A DNA stretch of 31,138 nt, from the IMG/VR virus record IMGVR_UViG_3300020478_000040, positions 1-31,138 of that record; one strand, written 5' to 3'. Under the pieces are notes generated by a model, which was not told the DNA's origin, did no database searches, and saw only the letters and a list, made by a program, of their open reading frames with translations. This DNA comes from a virus. Made by a program: the position numbers and the translations under genes. Position 1 is the stretch's first letter. Every line of letters begins with the position of its first letter. Of this stretch, positions 1,628 through 10,843 are shown one piece after another.

Positions 1628-2029
1628 TTAATCAATATCTTCGTAAAAATGATGAACCCCTATCTTTGTGATGGGGGTTTTTCCTTCTGCCCATTTCGGT
1701 TCACTAATATAATCAGCGTAGTAATGAGTAGCTTTACCAACATTACTATCGTGCAATCCATCTAAAACATTATTACTTATATCAACAAAGTCTTTTATAT
1801 CTCCGTGAGTAAGCTGTTCCATTTTTTCTTTGTTTGGGTCGCCTTCATTCCAACAAGAAAATTGCCATTTCTTTTTACATACACCTTCTAAAGTATCAGC
1901 ACTAAACCATTTTTTAGAATCAAATCTATTTTTAATAACATGGGCAATAGCATATTTACCTTCTAAACTTTCACCTCTTGCTTCACCCCAAACTGTTTGA
2001 GCCATTACTAACACGTCAGACTTTTCCAT
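1628..2029 (-). CDS. SleB-family cell-wall hydrolase (endolysin)
   Basis: The 133-residue protein begins MEKSDVLVMAQTVWGEARGE and continues EGKYAIAHVIKNRF, then WQFSCW at about 55-60 and a THYYADY segment at about 101-107. WGEARGE followed by A-A-VI-NR is the signature of the cell-wall hydrolase/SleB domain (PF07486), and the Glu in that motif is the presumed catalytic acid. The size fits a single-domain phage endolysin with no export signal, so it would depend on a holin, here at 317-697. Its start overlaps the metallophosphoesterase stop by 14 bases. Its 3' coding end contains, on the opposite strand, an intrinsic terminator for the convergent operon. Confidence 0.85.
   Translation of the reverse strand: MEKSDVLVMAQTVWGEARGESLEGKYAIAHVIKNRFDSKKWFSADTLEGVCKKKWQFSCWNEGDPNKEKMEQLTHGDIKDFVDISNNVLDGLHDSNVGKATHYYADYISEPKWAEGKTPITKIGVHHFYEDID
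1655..1683 (+). terminator. Intrinsic terminator of the 894-1624 operon, inside the SleB gene
   Basis: Bases 1655-1664 (AACCCCTATC) pair with 1670-1679 (GATGGGGGTT) in a 10-bp stem with one T-G wobble around the loop TTTGT, followed by T-rich sequence. It sits just after the plus-strand operon stop but within the 3' coding part of the opposing hydrolase gene. On the minus strand the hairpin is followed by CATCATTTTTA, so weaker bidirectional action is possible. Confidence 0.75.
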
Positions 2030-3174: not shown

Positions 3175-3672
3175 TTAGCCACCTAAGGGTGATGCATTTT
3201 CTTCTTTAATTTCTTCAATCAAAATATTTTGCAATTCATTTTCTTTTTGAACAATAGAAACTAACTTGCTTAATTCACCAATTAAATCTCTCATTTTACC
3301 AAACTCTTTGTATATTTCAGCATTGGCTTTAGACATGTTTTGCATTATCTCTTTATCAACAGATGCAAGTTTTTCATCACCTTCTATCGAATCAGATTTA
3401 GCTGTTAAAATATCTGTACTAATAACATCCAAACTATCGTTATCTCTAGCCATCCATTCATCTTCTAATGCAGACATGCGGTCTAGTATTTCAACTTCTA
3501 GTGTAGAAATTTTTTCATTAATAGGTCCTAGATCCACAGTTTCATTTACAACAAATTCTTTGTTTTCAATACCATCAAGACGTGTATTAAACTCACCCCA
3601 TGCATAAAAACCACCACCTATTGCGCCTATAACTCCTATTATAGATGCATAGCTTGTTAATTTTTCTATCAT
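3175..3672 (-). CDS. Membrane-anchored coiled-coil protein, 165 aa
   Basis: An N-terminal membrane helix with small-residue spacing (YASIIGVIGAIGGGFYAWG, about 8-26) is followed by about 135 hydrophilic residues rich in Glu, Lys, Ile and Leu. Segments such as INEKISTLEVEILDRMSALE and MRDLIGELSKLVSIVQKENE look like coiled coils. The expected topology is a single anchor with a long periplasmic rod. This resembles anchored coiled-coil proteins of marine phages, and in function could be spanin-like or tail-associated; no name can be assigned. The gene overlaps the upstream acidic protein gene by 4 bases. Confidence 0.65.
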   Translation of the reverse strand: MIEKLTSYASIIGVIGAIGGGFYAWGEFNTRLDGIENKEFVVNETVDLGPINEKISTLEVEILDRMSALEDEWMARDNDSLDVISTDILTAKSDSIEGDEKLASVDKEIMQNMSKANAEIYKEFGKMRDLIGELSKLVSIVQKENELQNILIEEIKEENASPLGG

Positions 3673-5291
3673 AATAATCCTTTAAGTTTTTTTAAATCAA
3701 TTAAGATCTTTAGTTTTTCTACTTTAAGATCATAAAGTCTTTGGTTGCGTTGACCAATAGGGTCACTGTTAATGTAGTTATCTAATGTAACACCAACATA
3801 AATATCTTTATAATAAGTACCTAAGTCAGTTTGAATAAATAAAGTATCATCAACATTTTGATAAATGTTTTGCGGTTTATAAAAATTATCAGTCTTATAA
3901 ACATCTAAAGCGTTTGCGTTAGAGAATAAGGTTATTTCAGCTACCTTAACTTCTATCTTATCGTTAATATCTATTTTAATATCTTTATTAACAACCTCTA
4001 TTTCATTACCTTCTATTTCTTCAACCTCATCTATTTTTTCTACAGTTTCAATTTCTTCTTTTTCTATTTCTTTAATATCTTCTGCTTCTTCAACAGCTTC
4101 AGTTTCTTCTTCTAGTACCTCGGCGGTTTCGGTTTCTTCTTCTGGTGCATTAATAATCTCCTCTGGTTCTTCTGCAATTTCTATTTCATTTTCTTCTTCT
4201 ATTTCAATTGCTTCTTCTTCAGCAACCTCAACGTCCTCAATTTCTTCAACGTCATTAAATTCTTCTATCTCAGCTTCCGCTATAATTTCTTCAAATTCTT
4301 CAAAATCAATTTCTTCAAATTCTGTAAAATCAATTTCTTCTAAATCTTCTAAAGCTATATCTTCAAATTCTTCTAATGCAATTTCTCCAAAATCAAATTC
4401 TTCAAAGTCATCTATAAGATCTGTTAAAATAATATTTTCTTCAAAATTTAATTCTTCTAATTCTATTAATGCTTCATCAAAAGTAATTTCTTCAAAGTCC
4501 CATATTATTTCATCAAGAATAATATCATCTATAAAATTATCATCTATAACAATATCGTTTAAATCTTCTTGTATATCATCACTTAAAACAATAGGATTAT
4601 AGGTCATTGTTAAAGATGCACCTAATAAATTTGGTCCTTGTATGGATTGATTTGTGTAATTACTATCTGTTCCAGACCATGACCAATCTACTTTGTTTGA
4701 CCCAATTCCTGTATAAATTATTGTATCATTATATTGACCACAATTATTAGATCTACCATCAGATCCAGAATATGTTGGATAACCATTACAGTTCCCTTGA
4801 AAGCCATCGGGGTTAGTTCTTGTTTGTGTGTTTGTACTTAATACAGTTCCATCAACATCTTTTAATTTTATTGTCGTAGTATGAGAGTCGTTACTGCCAC
4901 CTTTAGACTCACAATTACCTTGGGTACTTTCACAGTTAGCAACATCAACGTAGCTATTTAATGTAATGCCATTATCTAGCATTGGCTGGGTAATAGAATT
5001 GCTAGTTAAACCAATATCATTAGCACTTACGGTAGCTGTTCCTGTTACCTCAAAATCACCGCCTACATCATATTTATAGCCACAGTTAGCTTGTCCTGTT
5101 GGGCAAGTAATAGTAAAACCATTAACTGTTGAGCCATTAGAAACATAACCACTACTACCGTCATTAATCATGTCGGTAGAGTTAGATCCCCAATCTACGC
5201 CGTCATTAGCGTTAGGTAATAAGTTGCCTGTTGTTTCCGCATAAGCAAAGCTAGTTATGAACGTTAATATTAGGAATTTTAACAGGTTCAT
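3669..5291 (-). CDS. Secreted protein with very long hyperacidic low-complexity region
   Basis: The 540-residue protein has a textbook signal peptide (MNLLKFLILTFITSFAYA, cleavage expected after AYA at about residue 18). Residues 19-230 are Ser/Thr/Asn/Gly-rich with six cysteines (63, 70, 120, 127, 168, 184), suggesting a disulphide-bonded domain. Residues 237-435 are dominated by Glu, Asp and Ile in short repeats such as EEIDFEEFEEI, and from 201 to 406 there is no Lys or Arg at all. A mixed C-terminal domain (about 436-540) follows. I recall acidic secreted proteins of this style in marine phages but know no function. It might bind cations or a surface polymer. It overlaps the upstream gene by 41 bases. 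Confidence 0.75.
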   Translation of the reverse strand: MNLLKFLILTFITSFAYAETTGNLLPNANDGVDWGSNSTDMINDGSSGYVSNGSTVNGFTITCPTGQANCGYKYDVGGDFEVTGTATVSANDIGLTSNSITQPMLDNGITLNSYVDVANCESTQGNCESKGGSNDSHTTTIKLKDVDGTVLSTNTQTRTNPDGFQGNCNGYPTYSGSDGRSNNCGQYNDTIIYTGIGSNKVDWSWSGTDSNYTNQSIQGPNLLGASLTMTYNPIVLSDDIQEDLNDIVIDDNFIDDIILDEIIWDFEEITFDEALIELEELNFEENIILTDLIDDFEEFDFGEIALEEFEDIALEDLEEIDFTEFEEIDFEEFEEIIAEAEIEEFNDVEEIEDVEVAEEEAIEIEEENEIEIAEEPEEIINAPEEETETAEVLEEETEAVEEAEDIKEIEKEEIETVEKIDEVEEIEGNEIEVVNKDIKIDINDKIEVKVAEITLFSNANALDVYKTDNFYKPQNIYQNVDDTLFIQTDLGTYYKDIYVGVTLDNYINSDPIGQRNQRLYDLKVEKLKILIDLKKLKGLL

Positions 5292-5895
5292 TTTTAGCTT
5301 TCTCTTTTAATATTTGTAAATCTATTTTTGCTTTATATTCAGAACGTTTTTGCCATTCTTTGAAATCAGGTCTAAGTTCAGGGTAAGTTTCCCATAATTT
5401 TTTAGCGTTCTCTCCTATTTGCCCTGCATGGGGACAAAAAGTATTAGCTTCGGCCATTGCCATAAACACTTCTTTTTTTTGACATAATAAAGTAATGGAA
5501 GCTACTTTCATACCAAAGTCATGAAGAACTTTAGCGTATTTAATACGAACACAATCCTCATCAATCACATGTTTTCCCCCTGATACTCCTACCAATGAAG
5601 AAGAAACAGATCCAGAAATACCCATAGAACAAACGTCCTGACTCATACTTGAATAAGATGGTGAGTTAGCACTGTTAACGGGTATTTGGGAAGCTGTGGA
5701 GGAATTGGTTGTTGTGGATGTTGTGGTGTTTGTTTGACCGCCATCATAGGTGTTGTTGGTAGTCATATTACCGTCTATGATGGTATTAGATCCGCTTTCA
5801 TTTGTTTGGGTATTGTTAGATAAAACGGGTTTCGCGTAAATTGATACAATAATTATTAAAGTTAAGGTTAGTAAATTCGTTAAAAAAAATTTCAT
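5251..5895 (-). CDS. Exported cysteine-containing protein, 214 aa
   Basis: The likely start is the ATG at 5895, giving a clean signal peptide (MKFFLTNLLTLTLIIIVSIY) rather than the TTG five codons earlier. A Ser/Thr/Asn-rich linker (about 25-85) leads to a compact C-terminal domain containing SQDVCSMGISGSVSSSLVGV, then ISGG-like and EDCVRIKYAK segments, LLCQKKEVFMAMAEA and FCPHAG. Four cysteines in this domain probably form disulphides. Similar proteins occur, as far as I recall, in marine T4-like phages and pelagiphages, of unknown function. Downstream it overlaps the acidic-protein gene by 41 bases, so the two are probably co-translated. Confidence 0.65.
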   Translation of the reverse strand: MKFFLTNLLTLTLIIIVSIYAKPVLSNNTQTNESGSNTIIDGNMTTNNTYDGGQTNTTTSTTTNSSTASQIPVNSANSPSYSSMSQDVCSMGISGSVSSSLVGVSGGKHVIDEDCVRIKYAKVLHDFGMKVASITLLCQKKEVFMAMAEANTFCPHAGQIGENAKKLWETYPELRPDFKEWQKRSEYKAKIDLQILKEKAKNEPVKIPNINVHN

Positions 5896-5923
5896 TAAGC
5901 AGAATCGCAACTTTTTTCATTAG

Positions 5924-6584: not shown

Positions 6585-6671
6585 TTATGCTCCACATGAC
6601 TCACATTCATCGCCACAAGTACATTTGTCTTTATCGCAACCACAAGTAGGACAATTAGGATTATTTGGCAT
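6585..6671 (-). CDS. 28-residue cysteine-rich peptide, probable metal-binding
   Basis: This ORF lies in the gap between the fibre cassette and the membrane protein. The product begins MPNNPNCPTCGCDKDKC and has seven cysteines in 28 residues (7, 10, 12, 17, 19, 23, 26), in CxxCxC, CxC and CxxC spacing. This could bind zinc or another soft metal, or be a disulphide knot. It overlaps the upstream gene by 11 bases and its stop abuts the next ATG, so it fits the tight operon. The ribosome binding site is weak. Without it there would be a gap of about 77 bases where the rest of the operon has none. Confidence 0.5.
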   Translation of the reverse strand: MPNNPNCPTCGCDKDKCTCGDECESCGA

Positions 6672-6828
6672 CTTCAATCGCTTGTAATCTTGTTTGTTCT
6701 GCCAATATATCTTCTTTAGGAATAGGTGTAGTTTCTATCCAAACAATAGTATCTACATCATCATTGTTATATCTAAACATTGCATCTGCGTTTAAACTTT
6801 TAATTGCTTTATCTAAATCTATAATCAT
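6661..6828 (-). CDS. Small XkdW-like tail protein, cassette copy 2 (55 aa)
   Basis: The ATG at 6828 overlaps the upstream stop as ATGA and has AAGGAG 12 bases upstream. The 55-residue product contains AIKSLNADAMF near the N-terminus and TTPIPKEDILAEQTRLQ at about 34-50. This P-x-PT/PIPKE-E pattern after a W/D segment resembles XkdW-type small proteins found next to phage tail fibres (PF09636), which may be fibre assembly factors. It is a clear paralogue of 8594-8773: 46 of 49 bases are identical between 6681-6729 and 8614-8662. Confidence 0.65.
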   Translation of the reverse strand: MIIDLDKAIKSLNADAMFRYNNDDVDTIVWIETTPIPKEDILAEQTRLQAIEDAK

Positions 6829-7382
6829 GTTGCCACTAACTCCTTAACACTAAACATTGAATATTGTCCGTATGTGCTTCTATTAAATCTAATCTGGTCT
6901 GTATTTAATGTTCCACAAGCTTGTACTTTTATACTTTTTTCTGAAGTTCCCCAAGATGGATGTACATAACTAAAATGACATCTAACTCTCATATAATCTA
7001 ATGTCGCACTAGCTACAGAATACATTGCTCCATTTGCATTTAAACTTCCATCACTTAATACTGCTGAATCTGTTGTATTATAAATTTGAATTTTAATACC
7101 ATTATTAACATTTGTAGTATTGGTATTACAGATACAGTTAAACTCAATTAATAATTTAGAAGAAGCACTTGTTGGAGTAAAAGCTAAACTTGCTCCAGTT
7201 ACATCTGTAAAACTTGTTGAAGCAATAGAGGTATCATTAGTTCCTAAAGTTGTATATTTATATTGAAGAAAACTATTACTAAGTCCAGTTAGACTAGCAC
7301 CACTAATAGCTGGTAAATTACCAGTTAATACTGTTGCATCTAAAGCACTCGCACTACGAGCATTAAGTTTTGTTAGTGACAT
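6825..7382 (-). CDS. Tail fibre tip-like protein, cassette copy 2 (185 aa)
   Basis: The N-terminus reads SALDATVLTGNLPAISGASL, an attachment motif shared with the protein at 8773-9321 (LDATKLSGNLPAISGANLTG). The remaining 150 or so residues are Ser/Thr/Asn-rich beta-type sequence with phrases such as TSFTDVTGASLAFTPTSASS, typical of marine phage fibre distal domains. The N-terminal module is conserved and the C-terminal domain is divergent, as expected of receptor-binding proteins under host selection. It ends with the start of the XkdW-like gene in a 4-base overlap. Confidence 0.7.
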   Translation of the reverse strand: MSLTKLNARSASALDATVLTGNLPAISGASLTGLSNSFLQYKYTTLGTNDTSIASTSFTDVTGASLAFTPTSASSKLLIEFNCICNTNTTNVNNGIKIQIYNTTDSAVLSDGSLNANGAMYSVASATLDYMRVRCHFSYVHPSWGTSEKSIKVQACGTLNTDQIRFNRSTYGQYSMFSVKELVAT

Positions 7383-7385
7383 TCA

Positions 7386-7709
7386 TTACTCCTTTGGGTT
7401 ATCCGTTCTAACTTTGTTATATTTTGTTTTGTATTCATTCCATTTAGTGTCATCTCCACCAATTTCTTTTTCACAATATGCTTCAGCAAATTCTTTAAGA
7501 CTTGGATATTCTAATGCTCTTTGTCTTGCAAAGCCTTGACTAGCATATGCTGTTTTTAACTCTGTTAATTTATCAGTTATCTTTTGTTCTGTAGGGGGTG
7601 TTTGTCCATCTAAATATGTAATAATATCACCTTTCATAACAAGTTCGCCATCAACTAATTCTCTTATTGCATCAAATCTATCTGGCTCATTTATATATCT
7701 TTTACTCAT
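7386..7709 (-). CDS. Fibre-associated small protein, chaperone-like, cassette copy 2 (107 aa)
   Basis: The 107-residue protein ends with a conserved helical module: RQRALEYPSLKEFAEAYCEKE, then an acidic turn and TKYNKVRTDNPKE. The same module is in the 9325-9663 protein (RLKEYPSVGDMIDAICKKE...KYPKE), so the two are paralogues. Small proteins with an EYPS...YPKE C-terminus commonly sit between fibre genes in marine phages, and I take them to be assembly chaperones or baseplate-like adaptors. This is inference from position. Confidence 0.55.
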   Translation of the reverse strand: MSKRYINEPDRFDAIRELVDGELVMKGDIITYLDGQTPPTEQKITDKLTELKTAYASQGFARQRALEYPSLKEFAEAYCEKEIGGDDTKWNEYKTKYNKVRTDNPKE

Positions 7710-7718
7710 TTATTCTCC

Positions 7719-8597
7719 TCAACTGTCATCTAATTCTAGTAATGCAATTCCTTCTCCAGCGTGTAACATTACCTTATTTCCACCAGATAGTGATGAGCAT
7801 CTTGTCTTAAATGTAACTGCACCACTATACCCAGCAACTCTAACTGTTGGTAAAGGAAGTTCATCTTCATCTGAGCCAGTTGATGCTCTATGAGAAGCAA
7901 GAACAGCAGAATTTGTGTCATCATAAATATCGCAATATATTCCACCACCAGCACTGCCTCTATTAGCAGTTCCTAATCCAACTAATAGCAATATATTATC
8001 ACTGCTCTCCATTGTATGAGCAATACTTGTATGGTCTTGTACAGTAGTTCCACTTGCAGTTGTTGTACCACTACCAACCGATAAAGTAACTTTAACAAGT
8101 TTTCCTCCTCCACCAGCCTCTGCCCAAGTTAAACCACCAGTGTTAGAAGATTGGGCAGATAAAAAATATCCGTTTGTAGGCGAATTAGAAACTTGTAATC
8201 TTGCTTCGTTTACTGATTCATCTGAAAGTTTTGCCTGTGTTACTGCGTCATCGGCAATTTTTGCTGAAGTTACGGCATCATCTATAATTTTTGCTGTTGA
8301 AATAGTTGAATCGCTAGGAGTACCAATGTTAAGAACATCACCGTACACCATTATAAAGTCGATAGAATCTGACGATGTCAGCGCCGAAGCAAACGTGAGA
8401 GTTGAACTCGAAATTGTGTAGCTGGTTGTTGGTTCTTGTATTATGCCGTTTAGAGATACAAGCATATGATTAACTGATTCTGGTGAATAGTTCGATCCCC
8501 CGTACTGCATTGTATATGAAGCGGTTGCGCTAGCAGTTAGCGCGTCTAATTTTATAAAATTTCCAACCGTGGGTTGCTTGCCAATAAAGTAGGTCAT
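7719..8597 (-). CDS. Tail fibre protein, cassette copy 2 (292 aa)
   Basis: The N-terminus MTYFIGKQPTV matches MSYFIGQQPAT of the 9672-10523 protein and looks like a shared module for docking to the tail. The middle has fibre-type repeats (AKIIDDAVTSAKIADDAVTQ, residues about 100-130), usual in trimeric phage fibres. The C-terminal 125 residues are Gly/Ser-rich beta-type sequence and differ from the other copy. The start overlaps the XkdW-like stop of copy 1 as ATGA, so the second cassette follows the first without a gap. Confidence 0.75.
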   Translation of the reverse strand: MTYFIGKQPTVGNFIKLDALTASATASYTMQYGGSNYSPESVNHMLVSLNGIIQEPTTSYTISSSTLTFASALTSSDSIDFIMVYGDVLNIGTPSDSTISTAKIIDDAVTSAKIADDAVTQAKLSDESVNEARLQVSNSPTNGYFLSAQSSNTGGLTWAEAGGGGKLVKVTLSVGSGTTTASGTTVQDHTSIAHTMESSDNILLLVGLGTANRGSAGGGIYCDIYDDTNSAVLASHRASTGSDEDELPLPTVRVAGYSGAVTFKTRCSSLSGGNKVMLHAGEGIALLELDDS

Positions 8598-8773
8598 TTA
8601 TTATCCTCTATTTCTTGTAATCTTGTTTGTTCAGCTAAAATATCTTCTTTAGGAATAGGTGTCGTAGTAGAAGTATCCCACCAAATTTTATCTACATCAT
8701 TTTCTGAAACAGTATAATCTGCTTTATCATTAAGCGACTTAATTGCATCAGCTATTCTTACTTGATAAGCCAT
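8594..8773 (-). CDS. Small XkdW-like tail protein, cassette copy 1 (59 aa)
   Basis: The ATG at 8773 overlaps the upstream stop (TAATG) and has a strong GGAGG 10 bases upstream. The product starts MAYQVRIADAIKSLNDKADY, contains KIWWDTSTTTPIPKEDILAE and ends IEDNK. The tryptophan pair followed by PIPKE is the pattern of XkdW-like proteins near tail fibres. It is paralogous to 6661-6828. The very high nucleotide identity of the 3' part suggests recent duplication or gene conversion. Confidence 0.7.
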   Translation of the reverse strand: MAYQVRIADAIKSLNDKADYTVSENDVDKIWWDTSTTTPIPKEDILAEQTRLQEIEDNK

Positions 8774-9321
8774 TATGCTAATACCTCCATTAAAATTAAA
8801 TCTGATTTCATATGCAAAGCATTAAATTGAACATACCCACCACTATGAGTTTTTGCTTGTGGGGTATATGTTATTGCACTTGTGGTACTTGGAGAATCTA
8901 ATTTCATCCAAGTATATCTCGTATTTCTTTGACCATTAGTCATGGCACCTTGATTATAAACTTCATAATTATAACCAGAAGAAAATACATTACTTGTTGC
9001 ACCCCCACTTATTGCTCTTTCAAGACTAACTCCATATCCTCTAGTTCCACTTTGAATATTCAACATAGTTTGGAAAGTCCACATGGCTAAAACTTTTGAA
9101 GAAGTTGCACTAGGAGTTATTGTTCCTTCTAAGTTACAATCTGCAAAAGAAGAAGAACTATCAACATCAATTTCACTACTACCTTCTGCGTGGATTATTT
9201 GAGCCACCTTACCCGCGCTGATACCAGTTAGATTTGCTCCACTTATTGCAGGAAGATTCCCTGACAGTTTCGTTGCGTCTAAAGTTGTATATCCTGTGTG
9301 TCCTATTTTACTAAATGCCAT
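8773..9321 (-). CDS. Tail fibre tip-like protein, cassette copy 1 (182 aa)
   Basis: The N-terminus MAFSKIGHTGYTTLDATKLS is followed by GNLPAISGANLTG, the repeat found in many marine phage fibres and in the paralogue at 6825-7382. The rest is beta-rich, with FADCNLEGTITPSATSSKVL and a long aromatic/glycine segment. It probably forms a trimeric receptor-binding tip. The two paralogues share little beyond the first 35 residues and the SATSSKVL/SASSKLL element, so their binding domains have diverged. Confidence 0.7.
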   Translation of the reverse strand: MAFSKIGHTGYTTLDATKLSGNLPAISGANLTGISAGKVAQIIHAEGSSEIDVDSSSSFADCNLEGTITPSATSSKVLAMWTFQTMLNIQSGTRGYGVSLERAISGGATSNVFSSGYNYEVYNQGAMTNGQRNTRYTWMKLDSPSTTSAITYTPQAKTHSGGYVQFNALHMKSDLILMEVLA

Positions 9322-9324
9322 ATC

Positions 9325-9663
9325 TTATTCTTCCTTTGGGTATTTTGTTTTTGTTGCTTGTCTTTTTGTTTCTAAAGAATCAAATTCTGTACTATCTCCA
9401 GCCTCTTTTTTACAAATTGCATCAATCATATCTCCTACACTTGGATATTCCTTTAAACGATTTGCAATAGCTTTATCATTATTTTCAAGTTTTGTTGCTT
9501 CACTATCTAAAGCATCTAATTGTTCTTTTGTTGGTTGAGGTTTGCTTTCGTTCCACTCTACTATTGTTAAGTTTCCATCATAATCAGCAGTAACTTTTAC
9601 TGTATCTCTATTAAAAGGTTTTTCTAAATAAACTGCTATGTTATATCTTTTGTCTATTGCCAT
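9325..9663 (-). CDS. Fibre-associated small protein, chaperone-like, cassette copy 1 (112 aa)
   Basis: The N-terminal 50 residues look like a small beta domain (YNIAVYLEKPFNRDTVKVTA). A linker ending PQPTKEQLDALDSEATKLEN leads to the conserved C-terminal helix pair with RLKEYPSVGDMIDAICKKE and a KYPKEE end. It is paralogous to 7386-7709. Its place between a fibre and a fibre tip suggests a fibre-assembly role, not shown directly by the sequence. Confidence 0.55.
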   Translation of the reverse strand: MAIDKRYNIAVYLEKPFNRDTVKVTADYDGNLTIVEWNESKPQPTKEQLDALDSEATKLENNDKAIANRLKEYPSVGDMIDAICKKEAGDSTEFDSLETKRQATKTKYPKEE

Positions 9664-9671
9664 TATATTTC

Positions 9672-10523
9672 CTATGTTGCTAATTTAAATCCACTAAAAG
9701 CATTTGTATATGCTGTACTAGATAATCCTTGTGAAGTTCCTAATTCAAGAGCAACTGTAACTTCATCTCCTGCACTTACATTTATTATACCTGAACAATG
9801 AACAGCACCAGCACTTGCATTAGATGTTACTCCACGAAGTTTATTTGCTCCCTCTACTTTAATATTAAAATACATTCCAGTATAAGAAGAACCTATATTA
9901 GCATTAGCTTGAAACCACCAATAGCCACCTTGACCACTTGGAATAGTGTATTTTCCATTTGAAGTATCATATCCACTAGCTGAATCAAAAATAGAATTAG
10001 TAAAAACTAACACAGCTTCACTACCTACTGTTTGTGTCGTTGTATCAACACGAAAATAAGGAGTATTGTTTCCACCTTTAATTAAAGAATAATCTATTCT
10101 TTTTATAACTCCGCCATCACTTACTAAAAATTCATCTGTGTCTGAAGGCTCGGAACTAAGTTCGGTTTGTGCAGATATAACATCAGTATTAAGTTTTGCT
10201 CCAGTAACAGCAGTATCATTTATAGTTGTGGTTGTAACACTACCAGCAGTAGGGTTAACTGATTGCATTACTTTATTTAAGTAATACACAGTTACGACAT
10301 CCCCTGAAACTAATGTGCCACCCAATGTAAGAGTTCTATTTCCTGTACCTCCTACCGAATAAGAATTTTTATCCTGAACTATATTTTGCCATACAACAAG
10401 TATATCTTCTTCCGCAGATATATCGTGATTTAAAGTTACCGTATTAGTCGTTAGACCTGTAAATCTATCCTGAATACCACTATCAAAAGTAGTTGCTGGT
10501 TGTTGTCCTATAAAGTATGACAT
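9672..10523 (-). CDS. Tail fibre protein with C1q-like C-terminal domain, cassette copy 1 (283 aa)
   Basis: Residues 1-11 (MSYFIGQQPAT) are the docking module shared with 7719-8597. The first 90 residues form a beta domain with NIVQDKNSYSV. From about residue 155 the sequence (PYFRVDTTTQTVGSEAVLVF, YTIPSGQGGYWWFQANANI, SGIINVSAGDEVTVAL, FSGFKLAT) follows the C1q/TNF-like jelly-roll pattern known in phage fibres, a trimeric ligand-binding fold. This is the likely host-receptor or glycan-binding tip. The gene starts at the base where the upstream 106-aa gene ends. Confidence 0.75.
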   Translation of the reverse strand: MSYFIGQQPATTFDSGIQDRFTGLTTNTVTLNHDISAEEDILVVWQNIVQDKNSYSVGGTGNRTLTLGGTLVSGDVVTVYYLNKVMQSVNPTAGSVTTTTINDTAVTGAKLNTDVISAQTELSSEPSDTDEFLVSDGGVIKRIDYSLIKGGNNTPYFRVDTTTQTVGSEAVLVFTNSIFDSASGYDTSNGKYTIPSGQGGYWWFQANANIGSSYTGMYFNIKVEGANKLRGVTSNASAGAVHCSGIINVSAGDEVTVALELGTSQGLSSTAYTNAFSGFKLAT

Positions 10524-10843
10524 CAGCTTACATCCGTTAGTAATTCAAGTGAAATATCTATAAGTCCACTTGCGTGAGAACTTTGTACTTGTACCTTGTC
10601 GCTTGAATTAAGTACAATTTTTGGTATTGTTAACGCACTGCCTGATGGAACTGACACGTCTTGAAATTTTACAAAAGTTGCAGTTCCGCTACTATCGTAC
10701 TTTTTTAAAGTAACATTTAGCGATGACGTATGCTTATTAGCAATAGTCCCCGTTACCACCATGCTTTTATTAGACGCTGTATATACATCAGTAAGTGAGT
10801 TGTTTGCAATAGTCAAAGATTTTTCATCAAAATTATTTGCCAT
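10523..10843 (-). CDS. Small beta-type structural protein, 106 aa
   Basis: The compact protein starts MANNFDEKSLTIANNSLTDV and continues with alternating beta-type sequence (VTGTIANKHTSSLNVTLKKY, LTIPKIVLNSSDKVQVQSS). Proteins of this size and pattern are frequent next to fibres in marine phages and look like an immunoglobulin-like or jelly-roll virion component. No catalytic motif is present. It lies between the large fibre and the first fibre cassette. Confidence 0.55.
   Translation of the reverse strand: MANNFDEKSLTIANNSLTDVYTASNKSMVVTGTIANKHTSSLNVTLKKYDSSGTATFVKFQDVSVPSGSALTIPKIVLNSSDKVQVQSSHASGLIDISLELLTDVS

Follow-up and report, generated by a model that had tools for sequence, protein, structure and literature searches.

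A modular fibre array in a podovirus-type genome, with XkdW-type proteins as candidate chaperones of the fibre heads

Layout of the fibre array

IMG/VR virus record IMGVR_UViG_3300020478_000040, from a marine phage, is a linear stretch of 31,138 bases with a G+C content of 33%, analysed here over its whole length (the window). Its minus strand carries a podovirus-type structural block (terminase, portal, scaffold, major capsid, virion structural proteins at the tail-tube position and an ejection-protein homologue) and the subject of this study, a putative host-recognition array of fibre genes and small genes of the XkdW family. An original prediction had read this array as a four-gene cassette duplicated in tandem: a fibre with a YFIG module, a small protein marked by EYPS...PKE, a fibre tip with an LPAISGA module and a second, XkdW-like small protein. 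This order is indeed present twice, with all eight open reading frames (ORFs) on the minus strand at the positions proposed (Table 1). The junctions also match, since in the first and second set, respectively, fibre and small gene are separated by 8 and 9 nucleotides (nt), small gene and tip by 3 and 3 nt, and tip and last small gene overlap by 1 and 4 nt; the last small gene of the first set overlaps fibre B by 4 nt. The 106-amino-acid (aa) protein next to fibre A is annotated as a ‘virion structural protein’ in the HTVC isolates HTVC100P, HTVC203P and HTVC106P.

Table 1. Genes of the fibre array and other features of the window
Feature	Position	Strand	Evidence or remark
106-aa protein, starts the array in relatives	10523..10843	-	phrog_26609; 78-80% identity in near relatives
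Fibre A: first-position-lineage YFIG module and C-terminal C1q-like head (about 157-280)	9672..10523	-	Pfam, PDB, YFIG tree
Small protein A (EYPS...PKE), XkdW family lineage 1, proposed chaperone of fibre A head	9325..9663	-	PF09636, tree, model
Tip A: short LPAISGA N-module and TNF/C1q-like jelly-roll head	8773..9321	-	phrog_6942, model, profile
Short XkdW-family protein A, 59 aa, lineage 2, proposed tip A chaperone	8594..8773	-	phrog_9114 N-half, tree
Fibre B: later-position-lineage YFIG module and divergent head, best match tip profile	7719..8597	-	Tree, profile
Small protein B, XkdW family lineage 2, proposed chaperone of fibre B head	7386..7709	-	phrog_9114, tree
Tip B: short LPAISGA N-module and tip-type jelly-roll head	6825..7382	-	phrog_6942, profile searches
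Short XkdW-family protein B, 55 aa, lineage 2, proposed tip B chaperone	6661..6828	-	phrog_9114, tree
Fibre-like protein upstream of the array, 751 aa	10857-13112	-	
Protein with Glu/Asp-rich middle, 540 aa, signal-peptide-like start	3669-5291	-	
Overlapping partner of the 540-aa gene, signal-peptide-like start	5251-5910	-	
Compact DNA methyltransferase, 184 aa	27335-27889	-	NPPF motif; phrog_799, second half only
Cell wall hydrolase	1628-2029	-	PF07486, 73 bits

The earlier reading missed that, as judged by profile matches, each half consists of two pairs of a fibre and a small protein, both small proteins being of one family. Because phrog_9114 matches all four small proteins, the EYPS...PKE ones as well as the short XkdW-like ones (which correspond to its N-terminal half), the unit appears to be a fibre gene plus an XkdW-family gene, present four times, and not a series of four unlike genes. 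Small protein A scores 32.9 bits against PF09636 (XkdW; curated cut-off 24.6), and PF09636 was matched by 25 of the 33 members of the small-protein alignment at E <= 0.01. The membership of small protein B and of the short forms follows from phrog_9114 and the tree, not from single matches to PF09636; on these grounds we assign all four to the XkdW family (PF09636/phrog_9114). The AlphaFold model of small protein A (predicted local distance difference test score, pLDDT, 91.6) shows a helix, two strands and then more helices, that is, an alpha-beta-beta domain with a three-helix C-terminal part. Its best PDB match is XkdW of PBSX (2HG7), with a Foldseek probability of 0.91 and a template modelling (TM) score of 0.64 on the target, but with an E value of 0.4 over 51 columns. 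A sequence profile from a set consisting mostly of one of the two deep lineages of the family (lineage 1, see below) also matches 2HG7 (E 0.0012), whereas a PDB search with the first, mixed small-protein alignment gave no match. The window thus shares sequence family and fold with PBSX XkdW, and differs in carrying several copies, each after a different fibre head.

With regard to the heads, the predicted C1q-like domain lies on fibre A (PF00386, 24.7 bits; cut-off 23.7), and a sequence search of PDB with the fibre A head found a C1q-related factor (E 3.8e-5). The model of tip A (pLDDT 76.8, with poor values over the first 30 residues) resembles TNF/C1q-like jelly-roll lectins, and the tip A profile matches the C-terminal domain of orf22 in PDB entry 9efk (E 5.7e-24). 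A C-terminal jelly-roll is therefore established from sequence matches in Pfam and PDB for fibre A and from the model for tip A, and those of fibre B and tip B are predicted by profile. As a distal-head profile seeded with fibre B alone found just two weak relatives, the head type of fibre B follows from the tip profile. Tip A as the sole query against viral contigs recovered no locus. Tip-type heads occur, intermixed, on both YFIG-anchored and unanchored genes.

History of the two halves

To compare the halves, the four corresponding pairs were aligned and their local-alignment scores set against those of 300 shuffles. All four are homologous well above chance: the fibres (z 8.8, 30% aa identity), the mid-size small proteins (z 15, 29%), the tips (z 13.5, 35%) and the short small proteins (z 23.5, 69%), unlike non-corresponding pairs, for which z ranged from -0.5 to 3. 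DNA repeats between the sets have a constant spacing of 1933-1939 nt. An assembly duplication or artefact can be excluded, because the copies are only 29-69% identical in protein. In the fibre, mid-size small and tip pairs synonymous sites are saturated: codon identity at identical residues was 27 against 31 expected from codon usage, 17 against 15 and 16 against 17, respectively, and only the short XkdW pair was raised above expectation (23 against 18; P about 0.08 over the conserved motif). The match of 46 of 49 bases previously pointed out at the 3' ends of the short XkdW genes is exact, the best 49-mer elsewhere between the sets reaching 34 of 49, and it covers a conserved XkdW motif. Since codon identity there is only mildly above the codon-usage expectation, the match is best read from the sequences as a conserved protein motif; recent gene conversion as its sole cause would have just this mild codon excess in its support.

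We next consider whether the repeat arose by one tandem duplication of the four-gene cassette in this lineage, after which the distal domains diverged. The identical order, the similar junctions, the constant spacing and the homology of all four pairs would be accounted for in this way, and the two short XkdW proteins group with that of locus L133 in a clade of three rows (100/99). The trees of the longer genes, however, rule out duplication of the whole block. In the YFIG-module tree, a branch with 99/91 support sets 16 of the 18 genes that immediately follow the 106-aa protein gene apart from the later-position genes; fibre A groups with gp52 of HTVC026P, and fibre B is in one supported group with gp55 of the same phage, so that the lineage split is older than these phages and the fibre lineages diverged before HTVC026P, HTVC100P and relatives separated. 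By this tree, the two YFIG N-modules represent two ancient position-specific lineages common to many pelagiphage-like viruses, such as the isolate HTVC026P. In the small-protein tree, small proteins A and B are likewise placed in different deep lineages by a branch with 100/99 support. The closest relative of a gene is therefore not its partner in the other block for the fibres and the mid-size small proteins, whereas the short XkdW pair is compatible with such kinship; the tip tree is too divergent to settle whether the tips are sisters (approximately unbiased test, p 0.35 for sister tips). Given these trees, and with synonymous sites at chance in three pairs and the full repeat missing from near relatives (below), we consider a single four-gene duplication very improbable, and a copy of the tip and short-XkdW pair alone is possible. 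Of the tandem cassette duplication that had been predicted, the paralogous pairs in the same order thus stand and the single event does not.

The prediction had also described conserved N-terminal docking modules with differing distal domains. The N-modules are conserved and the distal domains divergent, as stated; the docking label is premature, because the YFIG module of fibre B is homologous to residues 570-726 of P-SCSP1u gp28, a mid-fibre segment, whereas the P-SCSP1u fibre docks to the tail via its extreme N-terminus (PMC10575957).

Marine podoviruses often have arrays that contain both fibre anchors, and we collected 26 rows of them, some of which are repeats of one contig or are shortened by contig ends. 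The count of cassettes across these relatives did not bear out the repeat as a shared feature: two XkdW-family genes in each half were present only in this window among the both-anchor arrays found. The capsid protein of the window is less than 60% identical to that of any phage in the GenBank set, its matches including HTVC106P (Pelagibacter) and Venkman (Methylophilales), and the nearest relative with a long contig is L179 (capsid 93% identical). The array of L179 reads 106-aa protein, fibre (507 aa), tip (172), fibre (320), small protein (106), tip (199) and small protein (78), and so lacks the small gene after the first fibre and after the first tip, two of the four; another near relative, L264, has a small gene after the first fibre. 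This difference indicates that the gene content of the array changes even between close relatives. Hypervariability has been reported for the fibre region of HTVC010P-type phages (PMC10504331), and C1q-like, tail fibre, XkdW and fibre-assembly genes sit in variable islands of marine phages (PMC3909814). In HTVC026P, HTVC100P, HTVC106P and HTVC203P the order of 106-aa protein, first- and later-position fibres, heads and small genes is the same as in the window; they differ in that XkdW-family genes are fewer and additional head genes without an anchor are present, and the products are annotated as hypothetical or putative tail proteins.

Three loci (L197, L228 and L232) hold two copies of the 106-aa protein gene, each followed by a YFIG fibre, and are candidates for a true duplication of the array start; in several others, a further homologue of the 106-aa protein lies beyond the array. 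At L082:7398-9836, in a relative whose downstream gene (120 aa) is 81% identical, three pairs of head and XkdW gene stand in a row.

Small-protein lineage follows head type

To determine what the small-protein lineages correspond to, small proteins were classed by deep tree branch and the heads encoded upstream by profile. The 101 distinct family members gave 96 fibre-small pairs (median gap 1 nt); in 92 of these the head matched the C1q or the tip profile, and thinning left a set of 92 non-redundant pairs. Of 37 C1q heads, 31 were followed by a lineage 1 protein, and of 52 tip heads, 51 by a lineage 2 protein (Fisher 8e-17). The association was also evident among YFIG-anchored fibres only (20:2 versus 0:11, p 4e-7) and within phages holding both lineages, where 33 of 35 were concordant (permutation p 5e-5). 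Mutual information with small-protein lineage was 0.59 bit for the head, 0.10 for the anchor and 0.02 for the next gene being a YFIG fibre; in partial Mantel tests, r was 0.48 for the head with backbone and anchor controlled and 0.16 for the anchor with the head controlled. Small-protein lineage hence follows the upstream head type and not anchor, slot or backbone, and head and small protein are co-inherited.

Neighbouring genes could display such an association through shared descent, without any functional match. The genes are adjacent with gaps near 1 nt, may recombine together and have undergone few independent switches. Against this, the association survives control for backbone and anchor and holds within single genomes, and the next gene, which is often equally near, displays little of it (0.02 bit for a downstream YFIG fibre; downstream-gene Mantel r 0.29). 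We therefore regard shared descent alone as unlikely.

Two known systems suggest what the match could be for. In Pam3, fibre gp24, which has a TNF-like head, needs the adjacent two-domain chaperone gp25, which binds that head and trimerises via its C-terminal helices (PMC9608196). Shared with the window is the succession of a fibre whose head is TNF-like and a small protein of two parts, an N-terminal domain that contains beta structure and a set of helices at the C-terminus. Pam3 differs in having one fibre and one chaperone, in the N-domain of gp25, which is a Tfa-like beta-sandwich and not XkdW, and in that chaperone activity is proven for gp25, whereas the XkdW proteins of the window are known from sequence and model. 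In the Alteromonas phages V22 and A5, a fibre and its cognate DUF4376 chaperone are shared among unrelated marine phages (PMC10579305); the joint swapping is alike, and the differences are a single pair instead of an array of four and a DUF4376 domain that is unmatched in the window family. Indeed, no Tfa or DUF4376 Pfam match was found among the 33 family members at E <= 0.01, so that any likeness of XkdW-family proteins to these chaperones would lie in how they work, not in sequence kinship. As with Tfa- and DUF4376-type genes, the XkdW-family gene lies directly 3' of the fibre gene and varies with the distal part.

From these parallels, and on the grounds of co-inheritance and architecture, we propose a folding-chaperone role for each XkdW-type protein, acting on the head whose coding sequence immediately precedes its own gene. 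The array would then comprise four fibre or adhesin genes, two with slot-specific YFIG lineages and two with the short LPAISGA N-module alone, each ending in a predicted C1q/TNF-like jelly-roll head and with a small gene of the XkdW family behind it. The product of that gene would bind the head of the fibre just made and aid its folding and trimerisation, as Tfa-type chaperones do, and each head would move with its matching small gene from slot to slot and from phage to phage, the YFIG modules staying in their slots. The four-gene repeat would accordingly be a shared grammar fully filled in, and not one recent block duplication. We consider this account of a modular receptor-binding array with cognate head chaperones probable. 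The wider version, in which XkdW-domain proteins are head-specific fibre chaperones in general and marine podoviruses move head and XkdW gene jointly between slots, with up to four interchangeable adhesin-chaperone units per phage, is more tentative, at slightly under even chances.

A different role, that of a structural adaptor or cap which is kept on the virion and links fibre to tip or shields the fibre end, would produce an identical co-inheritance with the head, and Tfa of phage Mu remains on the fibre tip, as cited in PMC10579305. A linker, however, should carry information on its partners, yet lineage gives 0.02 bit on the next gene and 0.10 on the anchor, and the equivalent chaperone of Pam3 is absent from virions (PMC9608196). 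We judge the adaptor role to have only a small chance of being correct.

Several points weigh against the chaperone account. The short forms (55-59 aa) are without the helical part that would trimerise, and we know of no chaperone activity of XkdW proteins. In Bacillus phage Sam46, mutations of an XkdW-like gene altered plaques, not adsorption (PMC8190038). The tree had already been seen when the two lineages and the two head types were defined, the head assignment of fibre B is weak, and the C1q and tip classes may grade into one another. There are seven exceptions to the rule, and one exception lies within the run of pairs at L082:7398-9836. Finally, phylogenetic independence is the weak point, because the anchor tree has just two head switches on branches with good support; both are concordant, but this number is too small for an independent test.

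The prediction had further suggested two alternative or stacked receptor-binding sets. A receptor-binding role of the heads is probable and two sets in this phage are plausible, both presumably in use in one virion, and they may widen its host range as the prediction supposed. If the chaperone account is true, the XkdW family gains a testable function, and head type predicts small-protein lineage, which is a rule for pairing genes in the variable host-recognition regions of abundant ocean phages. The metaviromic islands described previously (PMC3909814) hold the same kinds of gene; there, XkdW is given as of unknown function and XkdW type is not tied to the fibre head. An apparent block duplication is also recast as exchange at the level of domains, which matters when fibre gene counts are used to infer host range. 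The head/small-protein rule and the proposed XkdW function are the useful residue of the analysis.

Other genes of the window

A tRNA search of the window found none, and hence gave no host hint. Counterparts of the fibre-like protein encoded upstream of the array (751 aa) measure 679-681 aa in five near-relative loci, and the roughly 70 extra residues of the window copy perhaps come from an additional internal repeat. The 540-aa protein, with a long middle rich in Glu and Asp, had no match in Pfam or PHROG and measures 541 aa in the near relative L179. The methyltransferase may, on its sequence, be a minimal enzyme and not a fragment, because its ORF starts with its own ATG. The cell wall hydrolase is likely the endolysin, as suggested by its Pfam match; several HTVC pelagiphages annotate a peptidase M15 instead.

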